Assembly (NCBI RefSeq): GCF_001411805.1 | Contig: NZ_CP007212.1 | Coordinates: forward strand, 2,170,001-2,234,000 | Direction of reading: 5' to 3' | Source of the DNA: Burkholderia plantarii | Lineage (GTDB): Bacteria > Pseudomonadota > Gammaproteobacteria > Burkholderiales > Burkholderiaceae | DNA length: 64,000 bases | Part shown: positions 18,313-63,359 of the stretch, piece after piece | Layout: every line of letters starts with the position of its first letter | Position numbering within the stretch: position 1 is the stretch's first letter | Program-made: the position numbers and the translations under genes | The notes under the pieces: generated by a model | Told to the model about the DNA's origin: nothing | The model's input: the letters and a program-made list of their open reading frames with translations, nothing else | The model's database searches: none

Positions 18313-18315
18313 TGG

Positions 18316-42923: not shown

Positions 42924-43634
42924 ATGGCCACCTTGCCCCTTGCCGGCGAACGCCTGGCCGGCTTCTCGGCCGGCGCCGACGCGTCGCTCTCGTCGCTCTC
43001 GTCGCTCGCGCGCGCCCCGCGGCAGGCGGCGCGCCCGCTGCACGCGCCGACTCTCTGCGTCGCGCGCGCGGCCCGCTTTCCCGACGACGAGGAATGCGTG
43101 CAGGACCTGCTGCTCGACTACGAGAAGGTGCTGCTGCGCCTGGGCGTGAAGATGCTGCGGCTCGGCACCGAGCTGACCTCGCTGCCGGGGCCCTACGCGA
43201 CGCCGCACGGGGCGGTCTTCCTGGCCGAGCTGGACGGCCGGCCGGTGGGCTGCGCGGCGCTGGTCGCGCACGACACGCCGGCGTGCGCCGCCGAGATCCG
43301 GCGCCTGCACGTGAGCGCCGCGCATGCCGCCCCGGCGCTCGACGCGCTGCTCGCGCGCAGCGTCGCGTTCGCGGCCTCGCTCGGCTGCCAGACGATCCGG
43401 CACACGCCGCTGCCCGACGCGATCGAGCATCGCGAGACGTTCGCGCGCCATCGCTTCATGCCGGCCGGCTCGGCCGCTCTGGCCAGTTCGGCCGGCTCCG
43501 CCACGGCACCGGGCGCCGGCGACGTGCCGCCCGGCGTGCTGATGCCGGCCGGCCTGCGCGTCGTGCCGCTTGCCCGCACGATCGCGCCGGCCCTGCACCG
43601 TTACTTCTCGACGAACGCGCGCTCGATCACGTAG
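42924..43634 (+). CDS. GNAT-family acetyltransferase
   Basis: About 236 aa. The core is GNAT-like (AVFLAELDGRPVGCAALV, then EIRRLHVSAAHAAPALDALL as the acetyl-CoA loop region, though the usual QxxGxG/A loop is degenerate). The start may be this ATG with a GAGGG SD or an ATG at 42909 overlapping the previous stop. Its end overlaps the convergent ferredoxin reductase gene by 34 bp. Confidence 0.6.
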   Translation: MATLPLAGERLAGFSAGADASLSSLSSLARAPRQAARPLHAPTLCVARAARFPDDEECVQDLLLDYEKVLLRLGVKMLRLGTELTSLPGPYATPHGAVFLAELDGRPVGCAALVAHDTPACAAEIRRLHVSAAHAAPALDALLARSVAFAASLGCQTIRHTPLPDAIEHRETFARHRFMPAGSAALASSAGSATAPGAGDVPPGVLMPAGLRVVPLARTIAPALHRYFSTNARSIT

Positions 43635-44377
43635 TCGCCCGGCTCGCCCTGATGCGGCGAGACGCGCAGGCCGCGCGCATCGAGCAGCGCGCACAGATCG
43701 TTCAACAGCGAGGGGCTGCCGCACAGCATCGCGCGATCATGCTCGCGCGACAGCGGCGGCACGCCGAGATCCTCGAACAGCTTGCCGCTCTCGATCAGGT
43801 CGGTGATGCGGCCGCGATTGTGGAACGGCTCGCGCGTGACGGTCGGGTAATAGACCAGCTTGTCGCGCAGCATCTCGCCGAGGAACTCGCTGCCGGGCAG
43901 CTCCTCGCGGATGAAGTCGGCATAGGCCAGCTCGCTCACGTAGCGCACGCCATGCACCAGCACCACCTGCTCGAAGCGCTCGTACACCTCGGGATCCTGG
44001 ATCACGCTCATGAACGGCGCGAGCCCGGTGCCGGAGCCGAACAGGTAGAGCCGCCGGCCCGGCAGCAGGTCGTCGAGCACCAGCGTGCCGACCGGCTTGC
44101 GCGACACCAGCAGCTTGTCGCCGGGCTTCAGGTACTGCAGGCGCGAGGTGAGCGGGCCGTTGGGCACCTTGATGCTGAAGAACTCGAGATGGTCGGCATG
44201 CGCGGCGCTGGCGATGCTGTAGGCGCGCGTGAGCGGCTTGCCGTCGATCTCGCAGCCGATCATGACGAAGTGGCCGCTGGAGAAGCGCAGCCCGGCGGGC
44301 CGCTCGGCGCGGAAGCTGAACAAGGTGTCGTTCCAGTGATGGACGCTGAGGACGGTCTGTTCGGTATAGGCGGACAT
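43601..44377 (-). CDS. fpr: Ferredoxin-NADP+ reductase
   Basis: A 258-aa FAD enzyme passing electrons between NADPH and ferredoxin. The FAD motif is LTRAYSIAS, the NADP motif GSGTGLAPFMS, and the C-terminal YVIERAFVEK is typical of bacterial Fpr. It is the last gene of the biosynthetic run and, with the ferredoxin at 56551, could reduce the two di-iron enzymes. It is probably a cluster paralogue rather than the housekeeping copy (inference). Confidence 0.9.
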   Translation of the reverse strand: MSAYTEQTVLSVHHWNDTLFSFRAERPAGLRFSSGHFVMIGCEIDGKPLTRAYSIASAAHADHLEFFSIKVPNGPLTSRLQYLKPGDKLLVSRKPVGTLVLDDLLPGRRLYLFGSGTGLAPFMSVIQDPEVYERFEQVVLVHGVRYVSELAYADFIREELPGSEFLGEMLRDKLVYYPTVTREPFHNRGRITDLIESGKLFEDLGVPPLSREHDRAMLCGSPSLLNDLCALLDARGLRVSPHQGEPGDYVIERAFVEK

Positions 44378-44450
44378 GGTGGGTTCGAAGGCGGGTTGCG
44401 GGAGATCCGGGAAGGAGGCGGCGCTCGGCGGCGCATTTCAGCGGCGGACG

Positions 44451-45476
44451 TCAACGGAACACGACGGTGCGCGCGCCGTTCATCAGCACGCGGTGCTCGC
44501 AGTGCCACTTGAGCGCGCGCGCGAGCACCACGCATTCGATGTCGCGGCCGATCGCGGCCAGCTCGCGCGGGCCGGCCGCGTGGTCGACGCGCTCGACGTC
44601 CTGCTCGATGATCGGCCCTTCGTCGAGATCGGAGGTCACGTAGTGAGCCGTCGCGCCGATCAGCTTGACGCCGCGCGCGTGCGCCTGGCGGTAAGGCTGG
44701 GCGCCCTTGAAGCTCGGCAGGAAGCTGTGGTGGATGTTGATCGCGCGCCCGCGCAGGCTCGCGCACAGCTCGGGCGAGAGGATCTGCATGTAGCGCGCGA
44801 GCACCACCAGCTCCACGCGCTCGCGCTCCAGCAGAGCGAGCACGCGCGCTTCCTGCGCCGGCTTGCCGCCCGCGGCCGCGTCGAGCGGCAGATGATGGAA
44901 CGCCAGGCCCGAACGCTCGGCCATCTCGCGCAGGTCCTCGTGGTTCGACACCACGGCGGCGATCTCCACCGGCAGCTGCCCCACGCTCTGGCGGAAGATC
45001 AGGTCGTTCAGGCAATGGCCCTCGCGGCTCACCAGGATCGCGGCGCGCGGCCGCCAGCCGGCGTCGTGGACTTCGATCTGCATGTCGTAGTCGCGGCGCA
45101 GCGGGTCGAGCAGCCGCGCGATCGCGTCGGGGCCGGTCGCGGCGCCGGGCGCGTCGAGGTGAACGCGCATGAAGAAGCGGCCCCGCGCGGCGGCGCCGTC
45201 GGCCGCTGCCGGGGCGGCCGGAGCCGATGGGGAGGACGCGGCGCGTGCATCGAAGTCGCTGAACTGCTGCGTGTCGACGATGTTGCAGCCGGCCTCGTAG
45301 AGCGCGCGCGAGACGGCGTACACCACGCCGCGGCTGTCGGGACACGACAGCCGCAGCACGAATTCGCGGCCGGCGGCCGGATGGGTCTGGCCGCCGCGCA
45401 GGCGGGCCAGCACCTGCGCGGCGTCGTCATGGCGGCGCGCGCGCGAGGAATCGATCAGGGTTTCGTTGAGGGTCAC
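44451..45476 (-). CDS. purU: Formyltetrahydrofolate deformylase
   Basis: A 341-aa PurU-type enzyme releasing formate from 10-formyl-THF. An ACT domain (about 35-130) is interrupted by an Ala/Pro-rich insert; the catalytic domain has INIHHSFLPSFKGA (His) and ATAHYVTSDLDEGPII (Asp). It is longer than usual PurU (about 285 aa). The GTG start at 45476 overlaps the stop of the upstream SDR-like gene (GTGA), which argues for a role in the cluster: formate supply, folate balance, or a formyl transfer to the product. Confidence 0.85.
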   Translation of the reverse strand: MTLNETLIDSSRARRHDDAAQVLARLRGGQTHPAAGREFVLRLSCPDSRGVVYAVSRALYEAGCNIVDTQQFSDFDARAASSPSAPAAPAAADGAAARGRFFMRVHLDAPGAATGPDAIARLLDPLRRDYDMQIEVHDAGWRPRAAILVSREGHCLNDLIFRQSVGQLPVEIAAVVSNHEDLREMAERSGLAFHHLPLDAAAGGKPAQEARVLALLERERVELVVLARYMQILSPELCASLRGRAINIHHSFLPSFKGAQPYRQAHARGVKLIGATAHYVTSDLDEGPIIEQDVERVDHAAGPRELAAIGRDIECVVLARALKWHCEHRVLMNGARTVVFR

Positions 45477-46255
45477 AGGTTGTTCTCCGGAAAGCCGATG
45501 CCGATCGGCACCACCATGCCCGCGACCGGCAGGTCGTCGCGGACGATCCAGGCCACGAGCGCGTTCGCCACCGCGCCCGCGCCGTTGGGTTTGAAGCGCA
45601 GCGCGAACGCCTTCAGGCCGTCGCGCGCGTCGCTCCACGCGGAGGCGTCGGCGGCCTCCTCGGCGGCCGGCTGCAGATGCGCGGCGTTGACCTTCACGCC
45701 GAGCCGCAGCATCTCCTTGCCGAGGCTCTTGACGGCCGCGTGGCGCGCACGCACGTCCACCGGCAGCGCGGCGGGCGTGGTGGCGAGGTAATAGCCCATG
45801 CTGTCTTCCTGCGTGAGCGCCCAGATCTGCGCGTTGCCGCCGCGGCGCAGCAGCGTCGCGGCGGCCTGCAGCGTGGCGAGGAAATCGCCGAGGCGCGTTT
45901 CGAGCCGCTCGGCGAACGCATCGAAGGTGTCAAGGCTGTCGAACTCGGCGGCGGCATCGTCGCCCCCACCGAGGCCGGCCGACGCGTCGCGCGGCCGGCC
46001 GAACACGATCGTGTCGAACGGCCCGTGGCTCGCGTCCCAGGCGGCCAGATGCGCGGCGGGATGCGCGGCGCAGACGTTCGTCACGCCGGGGCCGCCGTCC
46101 TGGAACCTCACCGCGCCGTCGGCGCCGGCCGCCGCGACAGCGTCCACCGCCTCGCGCCGATGCGCGAGCACCCGCGTGCCGGCCGCCGCGAGCCGCGAGC
46201 ACAGCGCCTGCTCGATGGCGCCGTGCGCGTCGATCACGAGCGCGCGCGCACTCAT
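45473..46255 (-). CDS. Degenerate SDR-fold protein
   Basis: A 260-aa protein recognisable as a short-chain dehydrogenase from its C-terminal half (AAVKSLGKEMLRLGVKVNAAHLQP), but the key sites are gone. The glycine-rich cofactor loop is degenerate (VIDAHGAIEQA), and the YxxxK position reads VRARH. The usual active-site serine is not seen. It may be a non-catalytic ketoreductase partner or bind a different ligand. ATGA overlaps the carrier-protein gene upstream; GTGA couples it to purU. Confidence 0.75.
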   Translation of the reverse strand: MSARALVIDAHGAIEQALCSRLAAAGTRVLAHRREAVDAVAAAGADGAVRFQDGGPGVTNVCAAHPAAHLAAWDASHGPFDTIVFGRPRDASAGLGGGDDAAAEFDSLDTFDAFAERLETRLGDFLATLQAAATLLRRGGNAQIWALTQEDSMGYYLATTPAALPVDVRARHAAVKSLGKEMLRLGVKVNAAHLQPAAEEAADASAWSDARDGLKAFALRFKPNGAGAVANALVAWIVRDDLPVAGMVVPIGIGFPENNL

Positions 46256-46545
46256 GCGGTGGCCTGCGACCGATGCTCGATCACCAGCGCGGCGAGCCCG
46301 CCCACGCTGTTGCCCGAGGCCTCGATCAGCGCGCGGTTCAGCACCGGCAGGCTGACCCGGAAGCGGCCTTCGAGCGCCACCTGCAGGTCCAGCACGTCGA
46401 GCGAATCGAGCGCCAGCCCCTCGCCGAGCAGGCGCGTGTCGGCGCCGATGTCGGCCGGGTCCACGCCGGCCACCGATTCGAGCGCGGGCAGCAGTTCGGT
46501 CCTGATCACGTCGATGATCTCGTGCTTCGTCGTTACGTCGCTCAT
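46252..46545 (-). CDS. Acyl carrier protein
   Basis: A 97-aa carrier protein with the phosphopantetheine site at Ser in LALDSLDVLDL. One of three in the cluster. It overlaps the SDR-like gene (ATGA) and follows the dehydratase gene, so it may carry the growing chain during reduction. Confidence 0.87.
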   Translation of the reverse strand: MSDVTTKHEIIDVIRTELLPALESVAGVDPADIGADTRLLGEGLALDSLDVLDLQVALEGRFRVSLPVLNRALIEASGNSVGGLAALVIEHRSQATA

Positions 46546-46589
46546 GCTTGTCTCCGTCTGGGTTGAGGATCCGGCGGCGCGCCGCGCGG

Positions 46590-47111
46590 CTACTGCGTCA
46601 GGTACAGCGTGACGGTCGCGCTCATGCAGCGCTCGGTGCCGCGCAACACCACCGCCTCGAAATTGGCCACCGCGCCGGCGCGCGGCGCGGCGCTGCCGGC
46701 CGGCAGCGTCACGCAGGCCTCGAGCGCCTGCCCGGGCAGCACCGGCTGGAGGAAACGCGCGTTGCGCACGCCCACCAGGTGGCAGCGCGCCTCGCCGTCG
46801 CGACGGTGGCCGACCAGCAGGTTCGCGGTCTGCGCGACGAACTCCACCAGCAGCACGCCGGGCACGATCGGCGCGTCGGGGAAATGGCCGGCGAACCACG
46901 GCTCGTCGGGCGCGAAATGCTGGAAGCCGCGGATCGCGAGGCCGTCGGCGGCCACCTGCGCATGGCGCACGAACAGGAACGGCGCGCGGTGCGCGAGCAG
47001 CCGCGTCACGGCATCGGGGCCGAGCGCGGTGCCGGCGTCGAGCGTGGCGCCGGCGTCGAGCGCGGCGAATGCATCGGCGGCGGCCGCCGCCAGGGAGCGG
47101 GCGGGCGTCAT
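46590..47111 (-). CDS. FabZ-like 3-hydroxyacyl-ACP dehydratase
   Basis: A 173-aa hot-dog-fold dehydratase. The catalytic His is in WFAGHFP and the Glu in PGVLLVEFVAQ, as in FabZ. In a type II synthase it would make the trans double bond after ketoreduction. Its ATG overlaps the thioesterase stop. Confidence 0.85.
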   Translation of the reverse strand: MTPARSLAAAAADAFAALDAGATLDAGTALGPDAVTRLLAHRAPFLFVRHAQVAADGLAIRGFQHFAPDEPWFAGHFPDAPIVPGVLLVEFVAQTANLLVGHRRDGEARCHLVGVRNARFLQPVLPGQALEACVTLPAGSAAPRAGAVANFEAVVLRGTERCMSATVTLYLTQ

Positions 47112-47554
47112 GCGAACACCCCCGCCGTTTCGCCGGCCGGCAGATGCGGCGCGAGCGCGTCGAGCAGCGCCTGCGGATGCCGCACCGCGCGACGCGTGGC
47201 GCGCTCCACGGCCACCATCTCGATGCTGATGCGCGCGATCGCGTCGGTGCCGCGCGTGACCTCGGTCACCCACACCGAGCGCGAGGCCGTCATGCCGCCG
47301 ATCCGCGAGCGCAGCGCGAGGCGGTCCTCGAGCCAGGCCGGCGCGTGATAGACGGCCTCGACGCGGCGCACGATGAACAGCAGGCCGTCGGCGGCGAGCC
47401 GCGCGAACGAATAGCCGGCGGCGACCATCAGCCGGTTGCGCGCGCGCTCGGCCATCTCGATGTAGCGCGCGTGATAGACGATGCCGCCCGCGTCGGTGTC
47501 GGCATAGCCGATGTCGTAGAGCAGCGTGATCTCGTCGTCGGGATCGGATTGCAT
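47108..47554 (-). CDS. 4HBT/YbgC-type thioesterase
   Basis: A 148-aa hot-dog thioesterase. YADTDAGGIVYHARYIEMAERAR contains the Asp of the catalytic YbgC motif. It could release the finished acyl chain from its carrier. ATGA overlap with the dehydratase gene. Confidence 0.87.
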   Translation of the reverse strand: MQSDPDDEITLLYDIGYADTDAGGIVYHARYIEMAERARNRLMVAAGYSFARLAADGLLFIVRRVEAVYHAPAWLEDRLALRSRIGGMTASRSVWVTEVTRGTDAIARISIEMVAVERATRRAVRHPQALLDALAPHLPAGETAGVFA

Positions 47555-47666
47555 CCTGGGGCTCCGTGAAGAAATTGCGTATCGGTTGCGTGTCGGCGGC
47601 CCGCCGCGCGGCGTGGCGGGCGCCCCGGCGTCGGCGGGGTCGGCAAGGTCCGCGGTGCCTGCGCCC

Positions 47667-48407
47667 TCAGCGGTTGAAGCCGCCGTCGAGCCGCAGCGTG
47701 GTGCCGTGCAGGTAGCCCGGCTCGAGCAGGAACGCCACCGCGCGCGCCACCTCGTCGGCCTGCCCGACACGGCGCGCCGCGCTGCCGCCGACGATGTGCG
47801 CCGTCATCGCCGGCGTGAGGCCGGCGATCATCTCGGTGTCGATGAAGCCGGGCGCCACCGCGTTGGCGGTGAGCCCCTCGGCCGCGTAGCGCCGCGCGAG
47901 CCAGTGCGTGAAGCCGATCAGCCCGCCCTTGCTGGCCGCGTAGGCCACCTGCCCTTCCTTGCCCGCCACGCCGCCGAGCGAGGCGAGATTGACCACCGCC
48001 GGCGCGCGGCCGCGCAACAGGTGCGGCAGCGCCGCGCCGGTCACGCGGATCGCGCCGAGCAGGTTGGTGCGCAGCACGTTCAGGTAGCGCTCGGCCTCGA
48101 GCGTGACGAACGCGCCGTCGTCGACGATGCCGGCGTTGTTGACGAGCGCGTCGAGCCCGCCCAGCCGCCGCGCGGCCTCGTCGGCCAGCGCGCGCGCCGC
48201 GTGCGGATCGGTCACGTCGGCGCGCAGCACGGCGGCCGTCACGCCGGCCTCGCCCAGCTCGCGCTCGAGCGCATCGGCCGCCTTCGCGTCGTGGCGGTAC
48301 GAGGCCGCCACGCGCCAGCCGGCCGCCGCGAGGCGCCGCACGATCGCCGCGCCGATGCCGCGCGTGCCGCCCGTCACCAGCACCGCGCGCCCCGCCGGCG
48401 CGCTCAT
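47667..48407 (-). CDS. FabG-like 3-ketoacyl reductase
   Basis: A 246-aa classical SDR with an intact cofactor loop (GGTRGIGAA), NNAG, active-site Ser in NLASLGG and YAASK. The FabG-like PGFIDTEM segment follows. It is the competent ketoreductase of the cluster, in contrast to the degenerate SDR at 45473. ATGA overlap with the acyl-CoA dehydrogenase gene. Confidence 0.88.
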   Translation of the reverse strand: MSAPAGRAVLVTGGTRGIGAAIVRRLAAAGWRVAASYRHDAKAADALERELGEAGVTAAVLRADVTDPHAARALADEAARRLGGLDALVNNAGIVDDGAFVTLEAERYLNVLRTNLLGAIRVTGAALPHLLRGRAPAVVNLASLGGVAGKEGQVAYAASKGGLIGFTHWLARRYAAEGLTANAVAPGFIDTEMIAGLTPAMTAHIVGGSAARRVGQADEVARAVAFLLEPGYLHGTTLRLDGGFNR

Positions 48408-49576
48408 GCGCGACGGCGCGAGACGCTGCCCGCGATCACGATCTTCTGGATCTCCGAGGTGCCCTCGTAGATGCGCAGCGCGCGCGCCTGCCGGAACAGC
48501 CCCTCGGGCAGCGAGCCGGCCACCAGCCCGGCCGCGCCGAACAGCTGCACCGCGTCGTCGGCCACGCGCGCGAGGCCGTCGGTGGCGAGCAGCTTGGTGA
48601 TGCTGGCGTGCGCGGCCACCTCGGCCACCACGCCGGTGTCGAACTCCCAGGCGGTGCGCGCGACCAGCAGCGCGGTGCTGTCGGCGAACGCCACCATGTT
48701 GGCGATCTTGTCGATCGTGAACTGCTGCTGAAGCAGCTTGCCGCCCGCCACCGGGCGCTCGCGCGACCAGGCCAGCGACGCGGCCAGCGCACGCCGCGCG
48801 AAGCCGAGCGCGGCGGCGCCGACGCTGGCGCGATAGATGTTGAGGATCTCCATCGCGTAGCGGAAGCCCATGCCGGCCGCGCCGATCAGCGCGTCGGCCG
48901 GCAGCTCGGCCTGCTCGAACGCGAGCGAGGCGAACGCGCGCGGCGCGAGCAGCTCGATGCCGGCGGGCGCCACGCCGGCGGTGGCGGCCGGCACCGACAG
49001 GAAGCTCAGGCCGAGCCCGCCCGGGCCTTCGCCGGTGCGCAGCAGCACCGAGTGGTGATCGGCGATGTTGCCGTTCGACACCCAGGTCTTCAGGCCGTCC
49101 ACCGCATAGCCGCGCTCGGTGCGCCCGGCCTCCACCGCCACCGCCGCGAGGTTCGAGCCGGCCTCGGGCTCGGACAGCGCGAGCGAGCCGATCGTGGTGC
49201 CGTCGCGCAGCCCCGGCAGCCAGGCCGCGCGCTGCGCCTCGGAGCCGTACCAGGCGATCGGCGCGGCCGCGAGCCCCTGGATCGAGAACGCGAAATCGAC
49301 CAGATCGTCGAGATAGGCGAACGCCTCGCGCACCAGGCAAAGCGCGCGCACGTCGGGCCGCTCGCGGCCCGGCGCCGGATCGACGGCATGGCGCAGCCAG
49401 CCGTCCTGGCCGAGCAGTCGCGTGTAGAGCCGGCCGCGCTCGGCGGCCTCGAGCCGCTCGTATTCGCGCGGCAGCCACTCGTGGGCCTCGACCCAGGCCT
49501 CGAGGTCGGCGGCCAGCCGGCGGTGGGCGTCGTCATAGAACGGCAGGTTCAGGATCGCCGGATCGAAAATCTTCAT
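48404..49576 (-). CDS. Acyl-CoA (acyl-ACP) dehydrogenase
   Basis: A 390-aa flavoenzyme. It has the FAD-binding ALSEPEAGSN motif and the catalytic-base region YEGTSEIQK. It would introduce alpha,beta-unsaturation into a thioester, perhaps on a carrier protein, or act on the N-oxidised intermediate as nitro-alkane oxidase relatives do (speculative). Confidence 0.87.
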   Translation of the reverse strand: MKIFDPAILNLPFYDDAHRRLAADLEAWVEAHEWLPREYERLEAAERGRLYTRLLGQDGWLRHAVDPAPGRERPDVRALCLVREAFAYLDDLVDFAFSIQGLAAAPIAWYGSEAQRAAWLPGLRDGTTIGSLALSEPEAGSNLAAVAVEAGRTERGYAVDGLKTWVSNGNIADHHSVLLRTGEGPGGLGLSFLSVPAATAGVAPAGIELLAPRAFASLAFEQAELPADALIGAAGMGFRYAMEILNIYRASVGAAALGFARRALAASLAWSRERPVAGGKLLQQQFTIDKIANMVAFADSTALLVARTAWEFDTGVVAEVAAHASITKLLATDGLARVADDAVQLFGAAGLVAGSLPEGLFRQARALRIYEGTSEIQKIVIAGSVSRRRA

Positions 49577-49607: not shown

Positions 49608-50525
49608 TCAGGCGAGGCCCGCGATGCCGAGTTCGTCGAACAGGCTGCGCAGCGTCGCGTAATCGCGCGACAGCCGCACGCCCTCGTTGCGCGCGTCGAG
49701 GCGCGCCAGGATCCGCTCGCGATGCGGCACCGCCAGGTGCGCGAGGATCGCGTGCCAGGCGGTGGTGTCGGGCGTCGTGAACACGTCGAGCGCGGCGGCG
49801 ATCTCGGCGGCGAACGCGGCCTGCCCCGGCGCGTCGAGCGCGCGGTAGACCGAGCCGACGATCTCGTGGAAGCCGGTGCCGTGCGCGGCCTCGTCGCGCC
49901 GGTGCAGGTCGGTGTTGATGCGGTTCAGCGGCTGGATCGACAGGTCGGTGGAGACCTGCGTCAGGTAGGCGTTGATCGACATCTCCGCGACCGAGGCGTA
50001 GGCGAGCCGCACGATCGCGGCCTCGCGCTCGTCGCGCGCGGCCGCGAGGCGCGCGCGCTGCGCGGCGCCCACCAGCGGCTCGGGCACCTCCAGGTCGCCG
50101 AGCCGGTGCCGCTCGCGCGCGCAATGGCAAACCTCGAGGCACATCAGGATGTGGAACTGCTCGTCCACCTGGATCTGCGCGAGCGCCTGCTTGAGCCGCG
50201 CGTCGCCGGTGCCGGGCAGGCGGCGCTTGAGCAGCAGGCTGCAAAGCGGCTGCACGATCTCGTCCTCCAGGTACATCGCCTTCTCGTTGTAGGCGACCCA
50301 GGCCGCGCCGAGAAAGCGCAGCTTGTCGGCGTGCGGCAGCGGCGCGAAATCCTCGTCGTCCCAGAACGGCACCATCGAGATCGGGAACTCGGGGATCGAG
50401 TCGTCGCAGTATTGCGTCAGGTCCAGCCGCGGCTGCCGTACCGCCACGCGGTGGTCCCAGCTCGCGGCGAGCCGTTCCACCACCTTGGCGGTGAAGCTCG
50501 CGTCGTGATCGAGTGTCGTGTACAT
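49608..50525 (-). CDS. AurF-like di-iron N-oxygenase
   Basis: A 305-aa non-haem di-iron oxygenase. All seven ligand positions of AurF can be placed with matching spacing: E81 (YNEKAMYL), E122 and H125 (VDEQFH), E181 (EMSINAYL), H208, E212 and H215 (HRRDEAAH). AurF oxidises p-aminobenzoate to p-nitrobenzoate; relatives oxidise other amines to hydroxylamine or nitro groups. The substrate here is unknown. ATG at 50525. Confidence 0.88.
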   Translation of the reverse strand: MYTTLDHDASFTAKVVERLAASWDHRVAVRQPRLDLTQYCDDSIPEFPISMVPFWDDEDFAPLPHADKLRFLGAAWVAYNEKAMYLEDEIVQPLCSLLLKRRLPGTGDARLKQALAQIQVDEQFHILMCLEVCHCARERHRLGDLEVPEPLVGAAQRARLAAARDEREAAIVRLAYASVAEMSINAYLTQVSTDLSIQPLNRINTDLHRRDEAAHGTGFHEIVGSVYRALDAPGQAAFAAEIAAALDVFTTPDTTAWHAILAHLAVPHRERILARLDARNEGVRLSRDYATLRSLFDELGIAGLA

Positions 50526-50627: not shown

Positions 50628-51344
50628 TCACTGCACCGTTTCGAGCGCTCGCGCGTGCGCGCCGCGCTCGCGCCCGGCGCCGGCCTCGATCGCGTCGAAG
50701 AACGCGAGGCGCGCGTCAACCAGCGCCTCGCCCGCGCTCAGCATGGTCTGGATCCGCTCGTCGTCGCGCTGCGCGATCTCCACCAGGATGTCGCGCATGG
50801 TCTCGGCGTGGCCGTCGTCGCATTCCACGTGGATGTGGAAGAACGCCAGCGCGCCGGCCGCCACGCCGTGCGCCTCGAAGCCCTTGATGATGTCGGCGTA
50901 GACCACCGGCACCAGCGCCTCGGCGCCGAGGCACAGCGCGGCCAGGCCGCGCGCCGGGTCGGGATGGCGGCAGTGGTCGAACATCGTGTCGATCAGCCGG
51001 CGCGTGCCGATCAGCGGCCGCGCGCCGTTCAGCGACAGGCCGAAGTGTTCGAGCATGGCGCGGTAGACGAGGCTGTGCGGCGTCTCGCTGTCATCGGTCA
51101 GGCCCAGTTCCTCGCAGAGGTTGGCGGCCAGCTTCTGCACGTCGGCGTTGTCCGGCAGGTTCGCCATCAGCGCGCAGAGGTAGCGCGTGAAATAGCTGCT
51201 GTAGAGCCCCTGCTGCACCAGGAACAGCTTCAGCTCGTCGAGCGGCACGTCGCCCGAGCGGCAGCGCGCGAGAAACGAATGGTCGCGAATGCGGGCCACC
51301 AGCCCGGCCTTCGCCTCCTCCAGTACGTCCAGATGCATCTCCAT
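50628..51344 (-). CDS. Haem-oxygenase-like di-iron oxidase (HDO)
   Basis: A 238-aa all-helical protein of the TenA/PqqC/CADD fold. The HDO metal set is visible: E79, H90, E142 and the HxxxDxxH motif H172/D176/H179. HDOs perform N-oxygenation, carbon-carbon cleavage or desaturation in several natural-product routes (for example UndA, SznF and BelK types). AAGGAG lies 9 nt before the ATG. It is adjacent to the AurF-like gene, so both probably modify one nitrogen or carbon centre in turn. Confidence 0.85.
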   Translation of the reverse strand: MEMHLDVLEEAKAGLVARIRDHSFLARCRSGDVPLDELKLFLVQQGLYSSYFTRYLCALMANLPDNADVQKLAANLCEELGLTDDSETPHSLVYRAMLEHFGLSLNGARPLIGTRRLIDTMFDHCRHPDPARGLAALCLGAEALVPVVYADIIKGFEAHGVAAGALAFFHIHVECDDGHAETMRDILVEIAQRDDERIQTMLSAGEALVDARLAFFDAIEAGAGRERGAHARALETVQ

Positions 51345-56550: not shown

Positions 56551-56886
56551 TTACGCGATCACGTCGCGCTTCAGGTGCTCGAGCTTGCCCTCGACGTCCT
56601 TCCAGCGCGCGGCGTCGGGCAGCGCGGCGCGCGTGCTGGTGATGCTGGGCCAGCTCTGGGCCAGCTCGCGGTTCAGGTCGAGGAAGATGCGCTGCTCGGG
56701 CGCGAGCGCGCTGTCCTGGCGAATCGCGTCCACCGGGCATTCGGGCTCGCAGACGCCGCAGTCGATGCATTCGTCGGGATCGATCGCGAGGAAGTTCTCG
56801 CCTTCGTGAAAGCAGTCGACGGGGCAGACGTCGACGCAATCGGTGTGCTTGCACTGGATACAGTTCTCGGTCACGACATAGGTCAT
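56551..56886 (-). CDS. fdxA: FdxA-type ferredoxin (7Fe-8S)
   Basis: A 111-aa ferredoxin with cysteines C9, C12, C17, C21 and C40, C43, C46, C50 in a 3Fe-4S plus 4Fe-4S arrangement ([32 protein letters not shown]). Bacterial FdxA proteins are about 107 aa. As a second copy inside a biosynthetic run, with Fpr at the end, it is likely the electron carrier for the di-iron enzymes. Confidence 0.9.
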
Positions 56887-56982: not shown

Positions 56983-58095
56983 TCAGGCCCGCACCGCGGC
57001 CGCCGTGGCGGGCCGCCCGCGCACGTGCAGCGCGCGGCGGCCCGGGAACATCGCCACCGAGGCCACCGTGCATTCGCGGCGCACGTCGCCGGTGGGCAGC
57101 ACCTCGATCGGCGCGCGTCCGAGGCCGTCCAGGCAGGCGCGCGCGTCGGCCCCGGCCGGCAGGCTCGCCAGCAGTTCGCGGCAGGCTTCGAGCCGGCGCA
57201 GCGACGAGGTGCGCGCGAACGGATTGAGCGCGTCGTCGGCGGCCAGCTCGGGGTGCTGGAAGTGGTTCGTGTGCGCGTGCTGTGCGCCTTCCATCACCAC
57301 CAGCGCGTCGGGCGTGTACTCCACCGTCACCACGCGCGCCGCGTCGGCGATCGTCAGCGCGCGCGAACTCGCGAGCGGCAGCGCGCGCAGCGTGTCGAGG
57401 CATTCGTCCACGCTCGCGCAGCGGTCGAGCAGATGGCGGATCGCCAGGTAGCCCGGGATGCCGGGCCGCCAGTGGCCACCGAGCACGAGGCTCAGGCCGA
57501 TCGCGAGACCGCGGTCGTTGATGCCGAGGTAGCCGGTCAGGCCCGTGAAGCTGAGCAGCGCCACGCTGGCCGGCCCGTCGCCGGCCGGCCCGCCGTCGAT
57601 CTCGAGCACGCTCAGCTCGCCGGCCATGTCGCCGTTCAGGTCGATGGTCTGCGCGACGATCGATTCGCCGCCGGCATGCCGGCCGAACGTGGTGCAGTCG
57701 CCGCGCGCCGGGATCCGCTGGAAGCCGGACAGCTCGCGGCGCAGCTGCAGCAGGAACGCGTCCTCGGTGGCGATGTCGGCGCCGTCGGCGAGGCCGTGGA
57801 TCTCCTCGGCCAGCTCGGGCAGCACGCGCTCGATCTCGCGCGTGTGGCCCGCGATCAGCGGCGCGAACTCGTGCAGGCGGCGCGCCGAGACGAGCGGTTC
57901 GAGCCGCGTGACGCGATCGCCGAGAAAGCGCGCGATCGGCTCGCGCAGCGCCGCGCCGTGCTGGCGGCCGACCTCGTGGCGCGAGCCGGCGAGGCGCAGG
58001 CGGCGCGAGGCGTCGACGTCCGCGTCGATCAGGAACGGCGAGGCGGGCAACGACGACGTCGCCGCCGGATCAGCGAAAGCGGGTTGCGCGGACAT
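56983..58095 (-). CDS. C45-family Ntn-hydrolase (penicillin acyltransferase type)
   Basis: A 370-aa protein of the C45 peptidase/acyl-CoA:6-APA acyltransferase family. Predicted N-terminal nucleophile is C134 in RGDCTTFGRH, released by self-cleavage in the family; the TNHF and later motifs agree. It would form or break an amide bond. The usual residue before Cys is Gly; here it is Asp, so self-processing may be altered. Overlaps the GNAT gene by 26 bp. Confidence 0.8.
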   Translation of the reverse strand: MSAQPAFADPAATSSLPASPFLIDADVDASRRLRLAGSRHEVGRQHGAALREPIARFLGDRVTRLEPLVSARRLHEFAPLIAGHTREIERVLPELAEEIHGLADGADIATEDAFLLQLRRELSGFQRIPARGDCTTFGRHAGGESIVAQTIDLNGDMAGELSVLEIDGGPAGDGPASVALLSFTGLTGYLGINDRGLAIGLSLVLGGHWRPGIPGYLAIRHLLDRCASVDECLDTLRALPLASSRALTIADAARVVTVEYTPDALVVMEGAQHAHTNHFQHPELAADDALNPFARTSSLRRLEACRELLASLPAGADARACLDGLGRAPIEVLPTGDVRRECTVASVAMFPGRRALHVRGRPATAAAVRA

Positions 58096-58657
58096 CGGGC
58101 CACTCCGATTTGAGGATCGAGTAATAGATCGCGTCGCGGCGCCGGCCGCTCGGCATGAAGTTGAAGCTGCGCAGCACGCCTTCCTCGGTCGCGCCGATGC
58201 CGCGCAGGCCGGCCCGTGCGCGCTCGTTGAGCACGTCGGTCTTGAACTCGACGCGCTCGCAGCCAAGCTCGCCGAACGCGTAGTCGAGCAGCAGGCCCTT
58301 GGCCGCGCGGTTCACGGCGGTGCCGCGATACGGCTTGCCGAGCCACGACCAGCCGATCTCGAGGCGGCGGTCGGCGGCGGCCAGGTTGCCGAACGCGCTG
58401 GTGCCGGCGAACTGGCCGCTCTTGCGGTCGATGATCGCGAACACCACGCGCGTGCCGGCCAGCGAATCGGCGATCGCGCGTTCGAGGAACGCCACCAGGC
58501 TCGGCTCGTCTTGGACCACCGACACCATGTAGGTCCAGCTTTCCGGGTCGTAGGCGATGCGCGCGAAGCCGTCCTTGTCGTCGAGCCCGATGCGGCGCAG
58601 CGTGACCACCTCGTTCTCGAGCGTCGTGTTCAATATCGCGGGGATGTTCCAGGTCAT
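58070..58657 (-). CDS. RimJ/RimL-type GNAT acetyltransferase
   Basis: A 195-aa N-acetyltransferase (VTLRRIGLDDKDGF at the start; RGTAVNRAAKGLLLDYAFGELGCERVEF). It may acetylate an amine of the product or intermediate or provide self-protection; substrate unknown. Confidence 0.85.
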   Translation of the reverse strand: MTWNIPAILNTTLENEVVTLRRIGLDDKDGFARIAYDPESWTYMVSVVQDEPSLVAFLERAIADSLAGTRVVFAIIDRKSGQFAGTSAFGNLAAADRRLEIGWSWLGKPYRGTAVNRAAKGLLLDYAFGELGCERVEFKTDVLNERARAGLRGIGATEEGVLRSFNFMPSGRRRDAIYYSILKSEWPDVRATRFR

Positions 58658-58673: not shown

Positions 58674-58931
58674 TCAGGTCACGGCTTTCGAGGACAGCAG
58701 GCCGACGATGTCGCGCGCGGTGCGCAGCGCGGCCAGATCGTCCTCGGTGAATTCGGTCAGCGGCACGCCGGCGCTTTCGCAGACCGTGCTCATCAGCACG
58801 ATCAGGTCCAGCGAGGTCAGGCCGAGGTCGTAGACGAGGTCCGCGTCGAGCGGCAGCGCCGCGGCGGCGGCGGCATCCTTGCCCGCCGTTTCGGCGAGGT
58901 GGCGCCGGACGATCGTTTCAATTTCACTCAC
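58674..58931 (-). CDS. Acyl carrier protein
   Basis: An 85-aa carrier protein, phosphopantetheine Ser in LGLTSLDLI. It overlaps the AMP-ligase gene by ATGA, suggesting that the ligase loads this carrier. Confidence 0.88.
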   Translation of the reverse strand: MSEIETIVRRHLAETAGKDAAAAAALPLDADLVYDLGLTSLDLIVLMSTVCESAGVPLTEFTEDDLAALRTARDIVGLLSSKAVT

Positions 58932-60487
58932 GCTGAAGCTCCATAGAGTTGGTCGATTTCCTGCCGGAACGCGTTGAAGATCTCGTTGCGCTTCGGCTTG
59001 AACTGCGAGGTGACGAAGCGCGTCTCGCCGCGAAACGGCTCGGGCGTGATGAACGCGCGCACGATCCGCTCGTCGGGCGCGAGGCTCGCGTTCAGCTCGC
59101 TCAGGTGCGCGCGGATCGCGGCGTGGTCAGCGCGCGCGTCCTGCGGCGATACCACCGCCACCAGGAACGGCTTGCCCGAGCCGAACAGCACGCACTCCTC
59201 CACGCCCTGGTGCGCCTTCACGCGCTCCTCCAGGCTGCGCACGTGGACGTTCTTGCCGTTGGCCAGCACGATCAGGTCGTCGGCGCGGCCGAGGATGTAG
59301 AGGAAGCCGTCCTCGTCGATGCGCGCGAGGTCGCCGGTCCTCACCTCGCCCGTCGGCAGGAAGATCTTTTCGCTCGCGCCCGGCGCGCTGTAGAGATAGC
59401 GCGTGTTCACCGGCTGCTCGGCGCCCACCACCAGCACGCCGTGCTCGTCGATGCGCGCGCGCTTGCCGGGCAGGAGGCGCCCGACGCTGCCGGTGCGCGC
59501 ATGGCCCGGATGGTTCTTGCTGACGATGCAGGTCTCGTTCATGCCGTAGCCCTCGAAGATCGGCACGCCGGCTTCCTCGAAGAAGCGCAGCGTCTCCGGG
59601 TTCGCGGGCGCCGAGCCGGTCCACAGGTAGCGGATCCGGCCGCCGAGCAGCGCGTCGATGCGCAGGCGCCGCGCGGCCAGGTCCGTGTCGCCGGCCGGCG
59701 TGAGCCGCTCGATGCGCTTTTTCACGCCGTCGTAGAAGCCGGGCACGCCCATCACCACGGTGGGCGGCTGCTGGCGCGCGATCTCGAGCGCGTACTCGAA
59801 GCGCGTGACGGTGGTGTCGTGCCCGAACACGAGCGCCGAGTAGATCCAGTAGCGCTGCTGCAGCAGCGACAGCGGCAGGAACACCAGCACGTCGTCGTCG
59901 GGGCCGTGCGCGTAGATCTGCTGGACCGCCGCGAGCGAGGCGTCGATGCTGCCGGCGCGCGCGGCCAGCCCCTTCGGCTCGCCCGAGCTGCCCGAGGTGA
60001 ACTTGATGGTGGTGACGTCGTCGTCGGCATAGACGGCCGTGTCGAACGCCGGCGCGACCGGATCGACCTCGCGGCCGTCGCCGGCCTCCGCCACGGCGGC
60101 CTCGACCAGCTCGCGCAGGTCGTGGACGCCGCGCACGGCGAACGGCGCGACGCCGTCGGCCAGGATCGCGTCGAGCGCATAGCGTTCGACCAGCTCGCGG
60201 TTGGCCTCGAACTTGCCGAACTCGAAGCCGGCCGTCACGTAGCCGGCCTTCAGCGCGGCCAGGTCGAGCAGCACCCAGGCCAGCCCGTTGCGCGCGACGA
60301 TGCCGATCCGCGCGCCGCGCTTCAGGCCCGCCTCGCGCAGGCGCAGCGCGAGCCGCGCGGCCAGCGCGTCGAGCTGCGCGTGCGTGAGCTCGATGCGGCC
60401 GCCCTGCTGGAAGAACGTCACGCGCCGCGTGTCGTGCTTGCCGCCGTTCGCGGCCACCGCGTTGATCACCGATGGCGGGCGAGTCAT
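58928..60487 (-). CDS. Acyl-AMP ligase (ANL superfamily)
   Basis: A 519-aa adenylating enzyme. Core motifs are TSGSSGEPKG (P-loop), YGMNETCI, RTGDLARIDEDGFLYILGR and a C-terminal Lys in FKPKRNEI. It likely activates a carboxylic acid starter or acyl chain and transfers it to the ACP encoded directly after it. It overlaps the 622-aa gene by one base. Confidence 0.88.
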   Translation of the reverse strand: MTRPPSVINAVAANGGKHDTRRVTFFQQGGRIELTHAQLDALAARLALRLREAGLKRGARIGIVARNGLAWVLLDLAALKAGYVTAGFEFGKFEANRELVERYALDAILADGVAPFAVRGVHDLRELVEAAVAEAGDGREVDPVAPAFDTAVYADDDVTTIKFTSGSSGEPKGLAARAGSIDASLAAVQQIYAHGPDDDVLVFLPLSLLQQRYWIYSALVFGHDTTVTRFEYALEIARQQPPTVVMGVPGFYDGVKKRIERLTPAGDTDLAARRLRIDALLGGRIRYLWTGSAPANPETLRFFEEAGVPIFEGYGMNETCIVSKNHPGHARTGSVGRLLPGKRARIDEHGVLVVGAEQPVNTRYLYSAPGASEKIFLPTGEVRTGDLARIDEDGFLYILGRADDLIVLANGKNVHVRSLEERVKAHQGVEECVLFGSGKPFLVAVVSPQDARADHAAIRAHLSELNASLAPDERIVRAFITPEPFRGETRFVTSQFKPKRNEIFNAFRQEIDQLYGASA

Positions 60488-62355
60488 CAGACCGAGCCCT
60501 CCGTGAGCGTGGCCGCGCGCGCCACCGCCGGCTCGGGCAGGCGGTCGGCGGCGAGGTTGCGGTAGGTGCCGGCCACGAAGCCCTGGATCGTCAGCCGCTT
60601 CGCGTCGGGCGTCATCAGGTAGTTGGCGAGCGCCGTGTAGAGCGCCTCGAGCCAGAGCGTGCGGCGCCGGATGCGCAGCATGTCCTCGGTGCCGTACTCG
60701 GCGCCGTCGGCACGCACCACGCGCACGTCGTAGAAGCCGCGATAGCGGCGCCCCGCGATGTTCAGCGGCGGGCGCGACATGTCAGGCCCCGGCACGCGGA
60801 TCGAGAACTTCACGCGCGCGCGGTTGTGCGCGGCGCGGTGCATGTCCGAATGCGCCGAGATGTCGGGCACGAGCGGCGGGTAGTACCAGTGGCGCGACTG
60901 GCGCACCAGCGGCCGGTCGAGATTGCCGGGGATGAAGTGCCAGCGGTTGAACTGCATGCGCTTTTGCACCGAGCTCGCGATCGCCGTGCTCTCGGCGTCG
61001 CCGTAGCGCTCGATCGTGCGGTGCGAGACGTAGGCCGTGAAGAAGCTGGCCGGCGTGAGCGCGTGGATCGTGTCGATCAGCGTGGGCTCGTCGTAGGTGA
61101 CGAGCTGGCCGATGTCGCGCAGCGAGCTCGACATGCCGTAGTCCGAGCGCGTGGCCAGCACCGCCGAGGCCACCGTCTTCTCGATCAGGTATTCGGTCCA
61201 GCTGGTGACGGCCGCGCTGCCCGCGTCGCAGCCGATGCCGGCCACGTCGCGCGCGATCGCCGCGTTGGCGAGCAGCGCCATCGCCACGTACTCGGGCGGC
61301 TGGAATTCGCCGTGCGGCGAGACCAGGCCGCGGAAGTCGTCGCCGAACTCGCGATACCACTGGTCGGCGGCCTCGGTCGAGGCGGTCGAATCGAGAATTC
61401 GCTCGGTCTTCTGGAAGTTCAGGCCGTAGATCCAGCGATAGCGCAGCCACGGCTTGCCGATCGCGCACAGCGTCTGCTCGCGGATCAGCGCGGCGCGCTC
61501 GAACAGGTCGAGCTCGGCCGGCACCGTCACTTCGCAGCCCGCCTTGGTATAGCTGTCCGACAGCTGGTTCAGGCGCCCCACCACGTCGCGCGCGCTCAGC
61601 ATCGCGCCGTTGAATTCCTCGAAGCGCACCGAGCGGCCCGACAGGAACAGCGCGTGGAGCGCCGCCACCACCAGCCGTTCGTCGTCGCTCCAGTCGGCGT
61701 AGTCGCGCTTTCGCAGCGCGCTCAGGAAGCCGCCGCCGCTCTTGCTGTCGATCAGGTTCACGTAGCGGTCGATCAGCGCGAAGAAGCGGTCGCCGACGTA
61801 GAAGCAGACCGATTCGACGTGCTCGACGTGGTCGATCACCTCGTCGAGCACGCGCGGCAGCTGCCCCTCGGCGTGGACGCGATCGAGCGCGGCGCGCACT
61901 TCCTTCATGCTCTCGCGCTCGACGGCACGCCATGCCTCGGCCTCGGCCTCGATCGCGGCCAGCACGGCCGCGCCGGCGTCGACGAAGCCGAGCTCGACCC
62001 AGCTGTCCGCCTCGTCGTAGGCGATCTTCGGCTCGGCCGCCGGACGGATGTGCAGGCGGCCCAGCGAGTTGGCGTAGAGCAGCAGCGTGGTGTCGGCCGG
62101 CGTCGGCGCGCTCGCCTGGACGCGCAGCTCGGGGTGCCGTTCGAGCACCGCCAGCGCCGCGCGCTCCTGGACACCGAGCGCGAGGCGCGCCTGGTCGAGC
62201 GGATAGATGCCGCCGTGCGTCGCGGCGGACACCGCGACGTCGTAGGCGGTGCGGCCCGCATACGATTCGCCACGCAGGTACTCGGTCATGTCGAAACCGT
62301 ACAGGCTGTGCGATGCGTGGTCTTGCGTCGGCGTGTGTGCTCTGGGGTCCATCAT
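60487..62355 (-). CDS. Unrecognised 622-aa protein, first gene of the run
   Basis: A large soluble-looking protein without signal peptide. No known catalytic motif was recognised; it is helix-rich in the middle (HVEHVESVCFYVGDRFFALIDRYVN) with a more beta-like, basic C-terminal third. AGAGG precedes tandem ATGs at 62355 and 62352. As the first gene after the regulator-proximal promoter it is probably an enzyme defining the product, but no function can be assigned. Confidence 0.75.
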   Translation of the reverse strand: MMDPRAHTPTQDHASHSLYGFDMTEYLRGESYAGRTAYDVAVSAATHGGIYPLDQARLALGVQERAALAVLERHPELRVQASAPTPADTTLLLYANSLGRLHIRPAAEPKIAYDEADSWVELGFVDAGAAVLAAIEAEAEAWRAVERESMKEVRAALDRVHAEGQLPRVLDEVIDHVEHVESVCFYVGDRFFALIDRYVNLIDSKSGGGFLSALRKRDYADWSDDERLVVAALHALFLSGRSVRFEEFNGAMLSARDVVGRLNQLSDSYTKAGCEVTVPAELDLFERAALIREQTLCAIGKPWLRYRWIYGLNFQKTERILDSTASTEAADQWYREFGDDFRGLVSPHGEFQPPEYVAMALLANAAIARDVAGIGCDAGSAAVTSWTEYLIEKTVASAVLATRSDYGMSSSLRDIGQLVTYDEPTLIDTIHALTPASFFTAYVSHRTIERYGDAESTAIASSVQKRMQFNRWHFIPGNLDRPLVRQSRHWYYPPLVPDISAHSDMHRAAHNRARVKFSIRVPGPDMSRPPLNIAGRRYRGFYDVRVVRADGAEYGTEDMLRIRRRTLWLEALYTALANYLMTPDAKRLTIQGFVAGTYRNLAADRLPEPAVARAATLTEGSV

Positions 62356-62645
62356 CCCTACCTCTCTTCGGCCAAAGAAACGTGATCGGATGGCGGGCGC
62401 GTCGCGGCTCGCGACGGGCACCCGCCAGGTGCTGGGTTCGTATCGACTGGATGAAACGCGGCGCCCGACGCGCGGAAGTGACGGGCTTGCCGCCGGTGGC
62501 CGTCGCGCGATCGCCGATAGCTGATTTCAGCGTTTGCTACGTGGCGTGACAACTACCAAACTTCGGAGTCCGATTCATTGTTATGGCGGCGCGCCGCGCG
62601 AAAACGTGATGTCCCGGCCCGGCGGCGGCGCCAGGGCACGCGGGT
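62356..62645. promoter_or_regulatory. Putative promoter region of the biosynthetic run
   Basis: 290 bp between the LuxR gene and the 622-aa gene, both on the minus strand. An imperfect 18-bp inverted repeat at 62552-62569 (ACTACC...GGAGT) has 6 of 9 pairs and could be a lux-box-like site, but this match is weak. No gene is visible. Confidence 0.35.
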
Positions 62646-63359
62646 TCAGCTCAGCAGGCCGAGCATCGCGGCACGCACCACCGCGGAGGTCTTGTTGACC
62701 GTCTTGAGCTTCGCGACGGCGTTCTTCACGTGGAAATTGACGGTATCGACCGAGATGCGCAGGATCGTCGAGATCTCGCCCGAGGTCTTGCCGTCGGCCG
62801 CCCACTTCAGCACCTCGACCTCGCGATCGGTCAGGCCGCGCTCGGTGTCGGGCATCAGCTTGGGCATCAGCACGCGCGTCATCGCCAGATGCGTGGTGCT
62901 GACCAGCCAGCGCATCCGGAATTCGTTGTGCTCGAGTTCGACCGGCGTGACCGGGCCTTCCGAACGCGCCAGCGTCAGCATGCCCGACACCCCGCAACTG
63001 TCGAACGTGGACTGCGACCAGCCATGACGCAGGCCGTGTGCCTGCGCGTCGCGCCACAGCTCGGGCGTGCGGGAAAAGAACGCGTCGGTCCAGACCACCG
63101 GCGTCTGGAAGCGGCGCATGTGCTTCATGGTCGGATCGATGTCGATGTAGCCCGCCTCCATGTAGCGCTGCTTCCAGGCCTCGGGATAGTTGCTGAGCAA
63201 GTAGATTTTCGGCCGCGATACCGGCCATGGGATCCGCAAGCCGTATGCGCAGAATTCGTAACCGAGGTGATTCGCCGCGTCCTCGATCAATATCGAAATC
63301 TCTCGTTCCGAACTCGCGCCCTCGAGTCCGGACAAGAGTTCCCCAGCCCAATCGTACAT
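62646..63359 (-). CDS. AHL-responsive LuxR-family regulator
   Basis: A 237-aa LuxR-type regulator. The N-terminal autoinducer domain keeps the family's Trp, Tyr, Asp-Pro and Trp contacts (EAWKQRYMEAGYIDIDPTMKH, VVWTDAFF); the C-terminal helix-turn-helix is LTDREVEVLKWAADGKTSGEISTILRIS. GAGGAGG precedes the ATG at 63359. No luxI is in the window, so it may be a solo receptor or respond to a distant synthase. It probably activates the downstream cluster. Confidence 0.9.
   Translation of the reverse strand: MYDWAGELLSGLEGASSEREISILIEDAANHLGYEFCAYGLRIPWPVSRPKIYLLSNYPEAWKQRYMEAGYIDIDPTMKHMRRFQTPVVWTDAFFSRTPELWRDAQAHGLRHGWSQSTFDSCGVSGMLTLARSEGPVTPVELEHNEFRMRWLVSTTHLAMTRVLMPKLMPDTERGLTDREVEVLKWAADGKTSGEISTILRISVDTVNFHVKNAVAKLKTVNKTSAVVRAAMLGLLS

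Follow-up and report, generated by a model that had tools for sequence, protein, structure and literature searches.

What nitrogen chemistry does a large biosynthetic operon of Burkholderia plantarii encode, and what kind of product does it serve? Its 22 genes all lie on the minus strand, from a LuxR-type regulator (63395) to a ferredoxin-NADP reductase (43601), within a window of 64,000 nucleotides (positions 2170001-2234000 of contig 1 of an 8.08 Mb genome in three contigs). The operon is not a chance arrangement, because the same block recurs, in synteny, in seven of 65 Burkholderia genomes. A sequence-only reading of this DNA had suggested a nitro, azoxy, hydroxylamine or cleaved-chain product. 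Three genes that it left unnamed are decisive for the interpretation: that for the protein at 60487-62352, a GNAT gene at 58070-58657 and a C45 hydrolase gene at 56983-58095. Because a relative of KinJ with its ferredoxin occurs beside an AMP ligase, acyl carrier protein (ACP), GNAT, C45 hydrolase and acyl-CoA dehydrogenase (ACAD), hydrazine, hydrazone and diazo chemistry is the better reading, and these genes point beyond a simple amine N-oxidation. Homology gives good support for nitrogen-nitrogen (N-N) chemistry, and the operon, under LuxR regulation, probably serves to make a hydrazone- or diazo-bearing polyketide.

The KinJ-like enzyme and the predicted hydrazonoacetyl cassette

The protein at 60487-62352 had no match in Pfam, NCBIfam or the PDB. 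Its reading frame is open to 62421, and conservation in an alignment with eight Burkholderia and Variovorax relatives (A2) begins at 62352. In a tblastn search of plasmids it matched B. stagnalis and seven Streptomyces records, the latter at 27-29% identity over 53-58% of the query. In all four of the Streptomyces loci that we opened, the gene stands after a ferredoxin and before glutamine synthetase-like, adenylosuccinate lyase (PurB)-like and GNAT genes, with FAD monooxygenases nearby; two have an amidase, the other two a C45 peptidase, and one has aromatic type II polyketide synthase (PKS) genes. Judged from the description in the available text of a 2025 preprint (PMC12154649), these loci are the hydrazine cassette of kinamycin and fosfazinomycin. 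Pairwise hhalign aligned the window protein with a profile of three Streptomyces hydrazine-cassette proteins (A3) at 99.8% (E 8e-30, 568 columns).

According to the same text, KinJ/FzmP is a heme enzyme that acts with a ferredoxin to convert aspartate and nitrite to hydrazinosuccinate, and the residues K356, C468, R497, M498, N501, H504, H541 (the axial ligand), R551 and R570 are identified in KinJ. The Streptomyces NBC_00704 protein carries all nine at a constant offset of +8, and the KinJ numbering is therefore supported. Eight of the nine, axial His541 included, are found in the window protein, and these eight (His541, K356, R497, M498, N501, H504, R551 and R570) are present in all eight rows of the alignment used for this comparison and in every one of the eight Burkholderia and Variovorax rows of A2. 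The gene for a partner ferredoxin, FdxA, which we take to be of the 7Fe type, lies inside the operon. Burkholderia clusters with KinJ homologues are described as encoding 7Fe ferredoxins (PMC12154649, available text). That the window protein is a distant KinJ/FzmP-type heme enzyme, predicted to be a hydrazine synthase, is well supported by homology.

The second group of genes resembles the azaserine route as given in the available part of PMC10445470. There the GNAT enzyme AzsS succinylates hydrazinoacetate, AzsP loads it onto the carrier AzsQ, the C45 peptidase AzsT strips off the succinyl cap, and the hydrazone is formed by AzsF, an acyl-CoA dehydrogenase. The paper on Dob, in the part available, has the same hydrazonoacetyl enzyme set as azaserine (PMC13061610). 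In the operon the order from 60487 to 56983 is AMP ligase, ACP, GNAT, C45, and the azs gene table shows the same order apart from a gap in the lettering (PMC10445470). Among 218 records, 19 rows were listed for the GNAT at at least 48% identity, and nine loci were opened. Six of these hold the hydrazinoacetate trio (lysine N-monooxygenase, FAD oxidoreductase and cupin-tRNA ligase), and four of the six match the cassette order: S. meliloti pSmeSM11b (L035), S. lavendulae pSA3239 (L037), Streptomyces NBC_00158 (L039) and Streptomyces NBC_01276. The S. hirsutus locus has the trio with an AMP ligase and a GNAT, without ACP and C45, and the R. rhizogenes locus has the trio with a GNAT only. The window C45 hydrolase is 49-51% identical to its counterparts in L035, L037 and L039, and the ACAD is named "AzsF/Tri22-like" from its comparison with the S. 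meliloti ACAD.

Elsewhere in the B. plantarii genome the best matches reach 29% for the ligase, 37% for the GNAT and 35% (partial) for the ACAD, and GNATs outside the cluster in Burkholderia reach at most 42% identity among the matches listed. The AMP ligase, ACP, GNAT, C45 hydrolase and ACAD are predicted to form the set that turns hydrazinoacetate into a carrier-bound hydrazonoacetyl unit. The hydrazinoacetate trio is not among the 22 operon genes, and its cupin/tRNA-ligase enzyme has a best match of only 25% in the B. plantarii genome. The S. meliloti locus (L035 4163-20129) is an azaserine-like hydrazinoacetate cluster with nonribosomal peptide synthetase (NRPS) genes and a protein with the domain of the heme-oxygenase-like di-iron enzymes (HDO); pSmeSM11b is typed as a conjugative plasmid, and its host is a plant symbiont.

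Polyketide genes, di-iron enzymes and distribution

The operon has the gene set of a highly reducing type II PKS: a ketosynthase (KS) with Cys-His-His, a chain length factor (CLF) without the Cys, a ketoreductase (KR), a dehydratase (DH) and discrete ACPs. The KS scores 161 bits on the AmcF model (cut-off 325). Among the matches listed in plasmid searches with the KS, the HDO and the AurF/CmlI/Dob3-like di-iron enzyme (FDO), there was no second such cluster besides that of B. stagnalis.

The nearest PDB entries to the FDO are 5hyg/5hyh (1.9e-43), of which 5HYH is CmlI (PMC13108848, available text). Its seven candidate ligands, including the extra His of the N-oxygenase type, are E87, E122, H125, E181, H208, E212 and H215, with spacings of 35, 3, 56, 27, 4 and 3 against 36, 3, 58, 27, 4 and 3 in the list for Dob3. 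In the available part of PMC13061610, Dob3 is an FDO that oxidizes hydrazones to diazo groups and is likewise nearest to CmlI. For the HDO, candidate ligands of the three-His, three-carboxylate type (E78/E79, H90, E142, H172, D176 and H179) were located by eye in alignments with CADD and BesC. Its nearest PDB neighbour is CADD, a p-aminobenzoate synthase, and a CADD-type function was rejected, the self-sacrificed Tyr27 of CADD aligning with Leu25. HDO-domain enzymes occur in the S. meliloti locus and, in the text available, in azs.

Two further observations concern FDOs. A second one is encoded in B. plantarii (G000:C1:1848386-1849249, 31% identical), and G015 also carries one. The B. glumae plasmid psl2395s2p (L040 5521-16885) has pabB, aminodeoxychorismate/anthranilate synthase component II, an AurF-like FDO and NRPS/type I PKS genes together, a group that looks like a p-nitrobenzoate-starter pathway.

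The KinJ-like protein was found in nine of the 65 Burkholderia genomes and is full length in seven (78-100% identity, the B. plantarii genome included; 97% in G015). The other two, G025 and G052, retain roughly the first half of the gene and no more (L018 11715-12656 and L020 54-1028); the stretches read around these halves showed no other gene of the cluster, and they are apparent remnants. With matches taken at E at most 1e-5, coverage 0.3 and identity of at least 30%, the block and two convergent edge genes, GNAT-like and MFS, are syntenic in all seven full-length carriers, PurU and the ferredoxin-NADP reductase excepted. The FDO (at least 81%) is found in exactly the same seven genomes, as is the cluster GNAT (at least 85%). 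A class II aldolase gene lies between those for HDO and FDO in G048 and in B. stagnalis YJ-2, whose cluster sits on an 873 kb replicon. A single scan of genome contigs gave four named carriers (B. stagnalis, B. ubonensis, Burkholderia sp. SRS-46 and Variovorax sp. ZS18.2.2); across the order, the enzyme was found in one of 399 genomes, that of B. plantarii itself.

The Variovorax locus (L028) is a compact operon of regulator, KinJ-like enzyme, ferredoxin, AMP ligase, ACP, GNAT, C45 hydrolase, alpha/beta hydrolase, HDO and ACAD. It has in addition, at 17472-19009, a class II aldolase and a phosphopantetheinyl transferase, both lacking in the window cluster. The FDO query that matched seven Burkholderia genomes had no match in the Variovorax genome, and no cluster KS was present in the 21.8 kb read there, the best KS in that genome being at most 37% identical. 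Because Variovorax keeps the N-N core without the FDO or the cluster KS, this core is separable from the PKS/FDO module; it seems that the HDO is part of the core and that the FDO moves together with the PKS.

A lux-box-like motif occurs once in the window against 0.00 matches expected. The site is exact in seven of eight upstream regions, that of Variovorax included, and is not exact in G062. Upstream of the regulator gene, no open reading frame (ORF) is common to all six relatives compared, sharing being by pairs or trios only, and the LuxR gene was therefore taken as the cluster edge.

Proposed pathway and its alternatives

In the pathway that we propose, electrons would pass from NADPH through ferredoxin-NADP reductase and ferredoxin to the KinJ-family heme enzyme, which would couple the nitrogen of nitrite with an amino acid, probably glycine, to give hydrazinoacetate. 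The GNAT would cap the hydrazine with an acyl group, probably succinyl, and the AMP ligase would then load ACP1. The ACP1-bound unit would be oxidized by the ACAD and uncapped by the C45 hydrolase, giving hydrazonoacetyl-ACP. To this starter the KS/CLF, KR and DH could add malonyl units to form a conjugated chain. The FDO, the HDO or both may oxidize the hydrazone, by analogy with Dob3 most likely to a diazo group, and a hydrolase or thioesterase would release the product for export by the MFS pump. We infer the product, the order of steps, the use of glycine, every reaction in B. plantarii, hydrazonoacetyl as the PKS starter and the final oxidation state; the model is weakest at the glycine step, at the handover of the starter and at the last oxidation. 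Glycine is the probable substrate because NegJ, cited in the available text of PMC12154649, converts glycine to hydrazinoacetate and because the accompanying cassette is of the hydrazinoacetate type. PurU, which accompanies two further genomic copies (64% and 57%), could favor glycine formation by freeing tetrahydrofolate.

Several observations weigh against this pathway. The described substrate of KinJ is aspartate (PMC12154649, available text), and the KinJ residue numbers were carried over through Streptomyces homologues, not from the KinJ sequence itself. Cys468 of KinJ is replaced by Thr in the window protein and in all five Burkholderia and Variovorax rows compared, and this residue, T462, is invariant in A2. 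As described in the same preprint, Cys468 is near the heme and affects heme content in KinJ, and it is not the axial ligand; we do not take it as defining the family. The cluster's Pfam hits include no CreE/CreD-like nitrite pair; NarG, encoded in the genome, is a possible nitrite source. PurU and the ferredoxin-NADP reductase are found in four of the seven clusters, and three lack both. The window ACAD has no match at 1e-4 with the ACADs within L037 and L039, and tblastn gave no match between the window HDO and the S. meliloti HDO-domain protein. The best plasmid match of the KS outside Burkholderia is at only about 36% identity, which bears on the handover of the starter to the KS/CLF, and the hydrazone oxidase could be either of the two di-iron enzymes.

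As to the product, we tentatively favor a polyene started from hydrazonoacetyl, made from glycine and nitrite by the heme enzyme with its ferredoxin and capped as a diazo compound by one of the di-iron oxidases, that is, a vinylogous diazo polyketide or a pyrazole derived from one. It is also possible that the same N-N core leads to a non-diazo product, with the hydrazone kept, cyclized to a pyrazole- or pyridazine-like ring, or converted to an azo or azoxy group through N-oxygenation by the FDO. Vinyl diazo compounds and unsaturated hydrazones cyclize readily, the presence of two di-iron enzymes suggests more than one oxidation, and VlmB, a di-iron enzyme, converts a hydrazine to an azoxy group. 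AurF and CmlI, moreover, are N-oxygenases (PMC13108848, available text). Against this reading, the cluster Pfam hits include neither a tRNA ligase nor a seryl-tRNA transferase family (VlmO itself was not searched), and Dob3 is a direct precedent for a diazo group made by an FDO (PMC13061610, part available).

The operon could instead hold two pathways, one to hydrazonoacetyl and an unrelated one to a polyene or fatty acid-like chain, the products being joined later or never. The three ACPs would suit this arrangement, as would the Variovorax locus with its core apart from FDO and KS, but the modules are interleaved in the same order in seven Burkholderia genomes, and in triacsin a starter pathway of this kind is joined to a type II PKS that makes a polyene (PMC10445470, available text); we consider it unlikely. 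Very improbable is a model along the lines of the sequence-only reading, in which an amine polyketide is N-oxidized and the HDO makes p-aminobenzoate or cleaves the chain. The PDB neighbours of the two di-iron enzymes, CADD and CmlI, speak for it; the replacement of the CADD tyrosine speaks against it, and the KinJ-like protein, GNAT and C45 hydrolase are left unexplained. An azoxymycin-like logic, with p-aminobenzoate from a CADD-like HDO and an AurF enzyme, was rejected on the same grounds. Two other candidates were dropped: a glycine starter by analogy with cispentacin, which starts from 2-oxoglutarate, and a fragin-like diazeniumdiolate logic, no NRPS family being among the operon Pfam hits.

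Gene layout, earlier reports and known systems

The sequence-only reading had counted about 21 co-oriented, overlapping genes; the single-direction, overlapping operon was confirmed, and the count is 22 (Table 1). Adjacent genes overlap by 1-4 bp at eight of the 21 junctions and by 26 bp at one more. Family scans recovered every function that it had listed (KS, CLF, KR, DH, three ACPs, thioesterase, AMP ligase, ACAD, AurF-like enzyme, HDO, ferredoxin, ferredoxin reductase, PurU, MFS exporter and LuxR), and its identification of a highly reducing type II PKS gene set and of two di-iron enzymes was borne out. The cluster end that it gave, 63359, agrees with a downstream ATG in the same LuxR frame. 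The filter on third-position GC content (GC3) was passed by 17 of the 22 operon frames; the frame list showed only frames that passed, and the other five (CLF, C45 hydrolase, KR, DH and ACP3), which had been scored from far-upstream starts, are supported by family matches. The SDR-like protein is possibly a second, degenerate KR. ARAGORN called a tRNA-Ser at 54179-54271, inside the KS gene, and a tRNA-Arg inside the AMP ligase gene of one of seven relatives; the seven relatives scanned have no tRNA call in their KS region, and we took both calls as probable false positives. Elsewhere in the window, at 15712-15828, is an ALIL pseudoknot (Rfam RF01497), an element typical of frameshifting insertion sequences.

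Table 1. Features of the cluster and its edge, in window positions (SDR, short-chain dehydrogenase/reductase; aa, amino acids).
Feature	Position	Strand	Evidence or remark
LuxR-type regulator	62646..63395	-	Pfam Autoind_bind 6.7e-38, GerE 7e-17; ATG option at 63359
lux-box-like site	62551..62568	-	Upstream of operon; conserved into Variovorax
KinJ/FzmP-family heme hydrazine synthase (predicted)	60487..62352	-	ORF open to 62421; 621-644 aa
AMP ligase, AzsP/Tri29-like	58928..60487	-	Predicted loader of N-acyl-hydrazinoacetate; ligases of L035, L037, L039 50-54%
ACP1, AzsQ/Tri30-like	58674..58931	-	PP-binding; 42-48% to equivalently placed ACP of L035, L037, L039
GNAT, AzsS/Tri31-like	58070..58657	-	Predicted N-succinyl protection; 61% S. 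meliloti, 55-59% Streptomyces cassette GNATs
C45 autoproteolytic hydrolase, AzsT-like	56983..58095	-	Predicted removal of protecting acyl; NF040521 210.5 bits (cut-off 85)
Ferredoxin FdxA	56551..56886	-	NF045490 167.5 bits (cut-off 135); predicted electron partner of heme enzyme
MFS exporter	55044..56534	-	MFS_1 2.6e-40
ACP2	54642..55022	-	PP-binding 1.5e-8
KS	53416..54645	-	Pfam; Cys-His-His via ACSSG, HGTGT, GHP motifs
CLF, short (320 aa)	52457..53419	-	PF00109 4.3e-8; Cys replaced (GYQAG)
Alpha/beta hydrolase	51351..52418	-	Pfam matches below own cut-offs; Variovorax locus counterpart 44%
HDO	50628..51344	-	PF14518 2e-23 (Haem_oxygenas_2)
FDO (AurF/CmlI/Dob3-like)	49608..50525	-	PF11583 5.2e-30
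Acyl-CoA dehydrogenase, AzsF/Tri22-like	48404..49576	-	Predicted hydrazine to hydrazone; 49% full length to S. meliloti locus ACAD
KR, FabG-like	47667..48407	-	Family match
4HBT thioesterase	47108..47554	-	TIGR00051 70.0 bits (cut-off 68.7)
DH, FabZ-like	46590..47111	-	FabA-like domain 1e-14; FabZ models below cut-off
ACP3	46252..46545	-	PP-binding 4.6e-6
SDR-like protein, no clear family	45473..46255	-	No Pfam; NCBIfam SDR/FabG only at 0.004-0.007
PurU	44451..45476	-	TIGR00655 309.6 bits (cut-off 285.95)
Ferredoxin-NADP reductase	43601..44377	-	Family match
Convergent GNAT-like gene	42786..43634	+	43-74% in six relatives; no Pfam match; annotated GNAT in B. stagnalis YJ-2
Convergent MFS gene	41456..42691	+	MFS_1 2.1e-37; cluster edge in 7/7

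KinJ homologues in Burkholderia are already mentioned in the available text of PMC12154649, as is the occurrence of KinJ genes next to those for azaserine, triacsin and N-nitroglycine, and the window locus itself may be drawn in its figures or supplement. Our literature search returned no paper that we recognized as describing the product of this cluster, and the sequence-only reading was right to leave the product unassigned. In the available part of an antiSMASH survey of B. plantarii, perhaps of another strain, 20 clusters are given and no type II PKS class appears (PMC11153758), so that routine cluster-finding tools may pass over this one. Likewise, the published genome search for hydrazone oxidation used AzaE as bait (PMC13061610, available text); since no AzaE-like gene was found at the window cluster, searches of that design likely have a blind spot in which clusters of this type would go unseen.

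The cluster suggests that a nitrite-dependent KinJ enzyme may replace the lysine-dependent hydrazinoacetate trio at the start of a hydrazonoacetyl pathway, a swap raised as a possibility in PMC12154649 (available text). It also brings the FDO and the HDO, both candidate hydrazone oxidases, together in one operon; the roles of the two are separable because the natural variant in Variovorax carries the HDO alone. B. plantarii is a rice pathogen, and with the cluster behind a LuxR-type regulator, the product may matter in contests with plants or microbes.

Among known systems, highly reducing type II PKSs and the cispentacin (Amc) type share the KS with a partner protein, the discrete ACP and an AMP ligase, which in cispentacin loads a non-acetate starter. 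They differ in that the cispentacin starter is 2-oxoglutarate, the window KS falls below the AmcF cut-off, and the window partner protein keeps KS-like homology. The cassette of kinamycin, lomaiviticin and fosfazinomycin (KinJ, KinI) has the heme hydrazine synthase and ferredoxin, and the Streptomyces cassettes of the KinJ type at L031 and L054 also have GNAT and C45 genes. The window cluster, however, lacks the glutamine synthetase-like, PurB-like, amidase and CreE/CreD-like genes, and has FdxA in place of the 8Fe KinI-type ferredoxin.

The azs cluster, in the text available, and the loci L035, L037, L039 and L055 share with the window the order AMP ligase, carrier, GNAT, C45, as well as an ACAD, an HDO-domain enzyme, a LuxR-family regulator and an MFS transporter; azs and the hydrazinoacetate loci have the trio and an NRPS, whereas the window has the KinJ-type enzyme and a type II PKS. 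Triacsin (tri), likened here by description and not by sequence, combines the same cassette with a polyene-making type II PKS (PMC10445470, available part), but its hydrazine is made by Tri26-28 and its triazene by Tri17, where the window has the KinJ-type enzyme and the di-iron enzymes. The Dob cluster of Nocardia ninae, as far as described in the text available, has type I PKS and an AzaE-type trio, unlike the window. Because the AzaE-type trio, which makes hydrazinoacetate from lysine and glycine, was not found, the window cluster is not classed with azaserine, triacsin and dob and resembles them in its working. The elements that it has in common with Dob are a hydrazonoacetyl carrier, PKS extension, an AurF/CmlI-like FDO (Dob3 being compared by ligand spacing only) and an MFS transporter.

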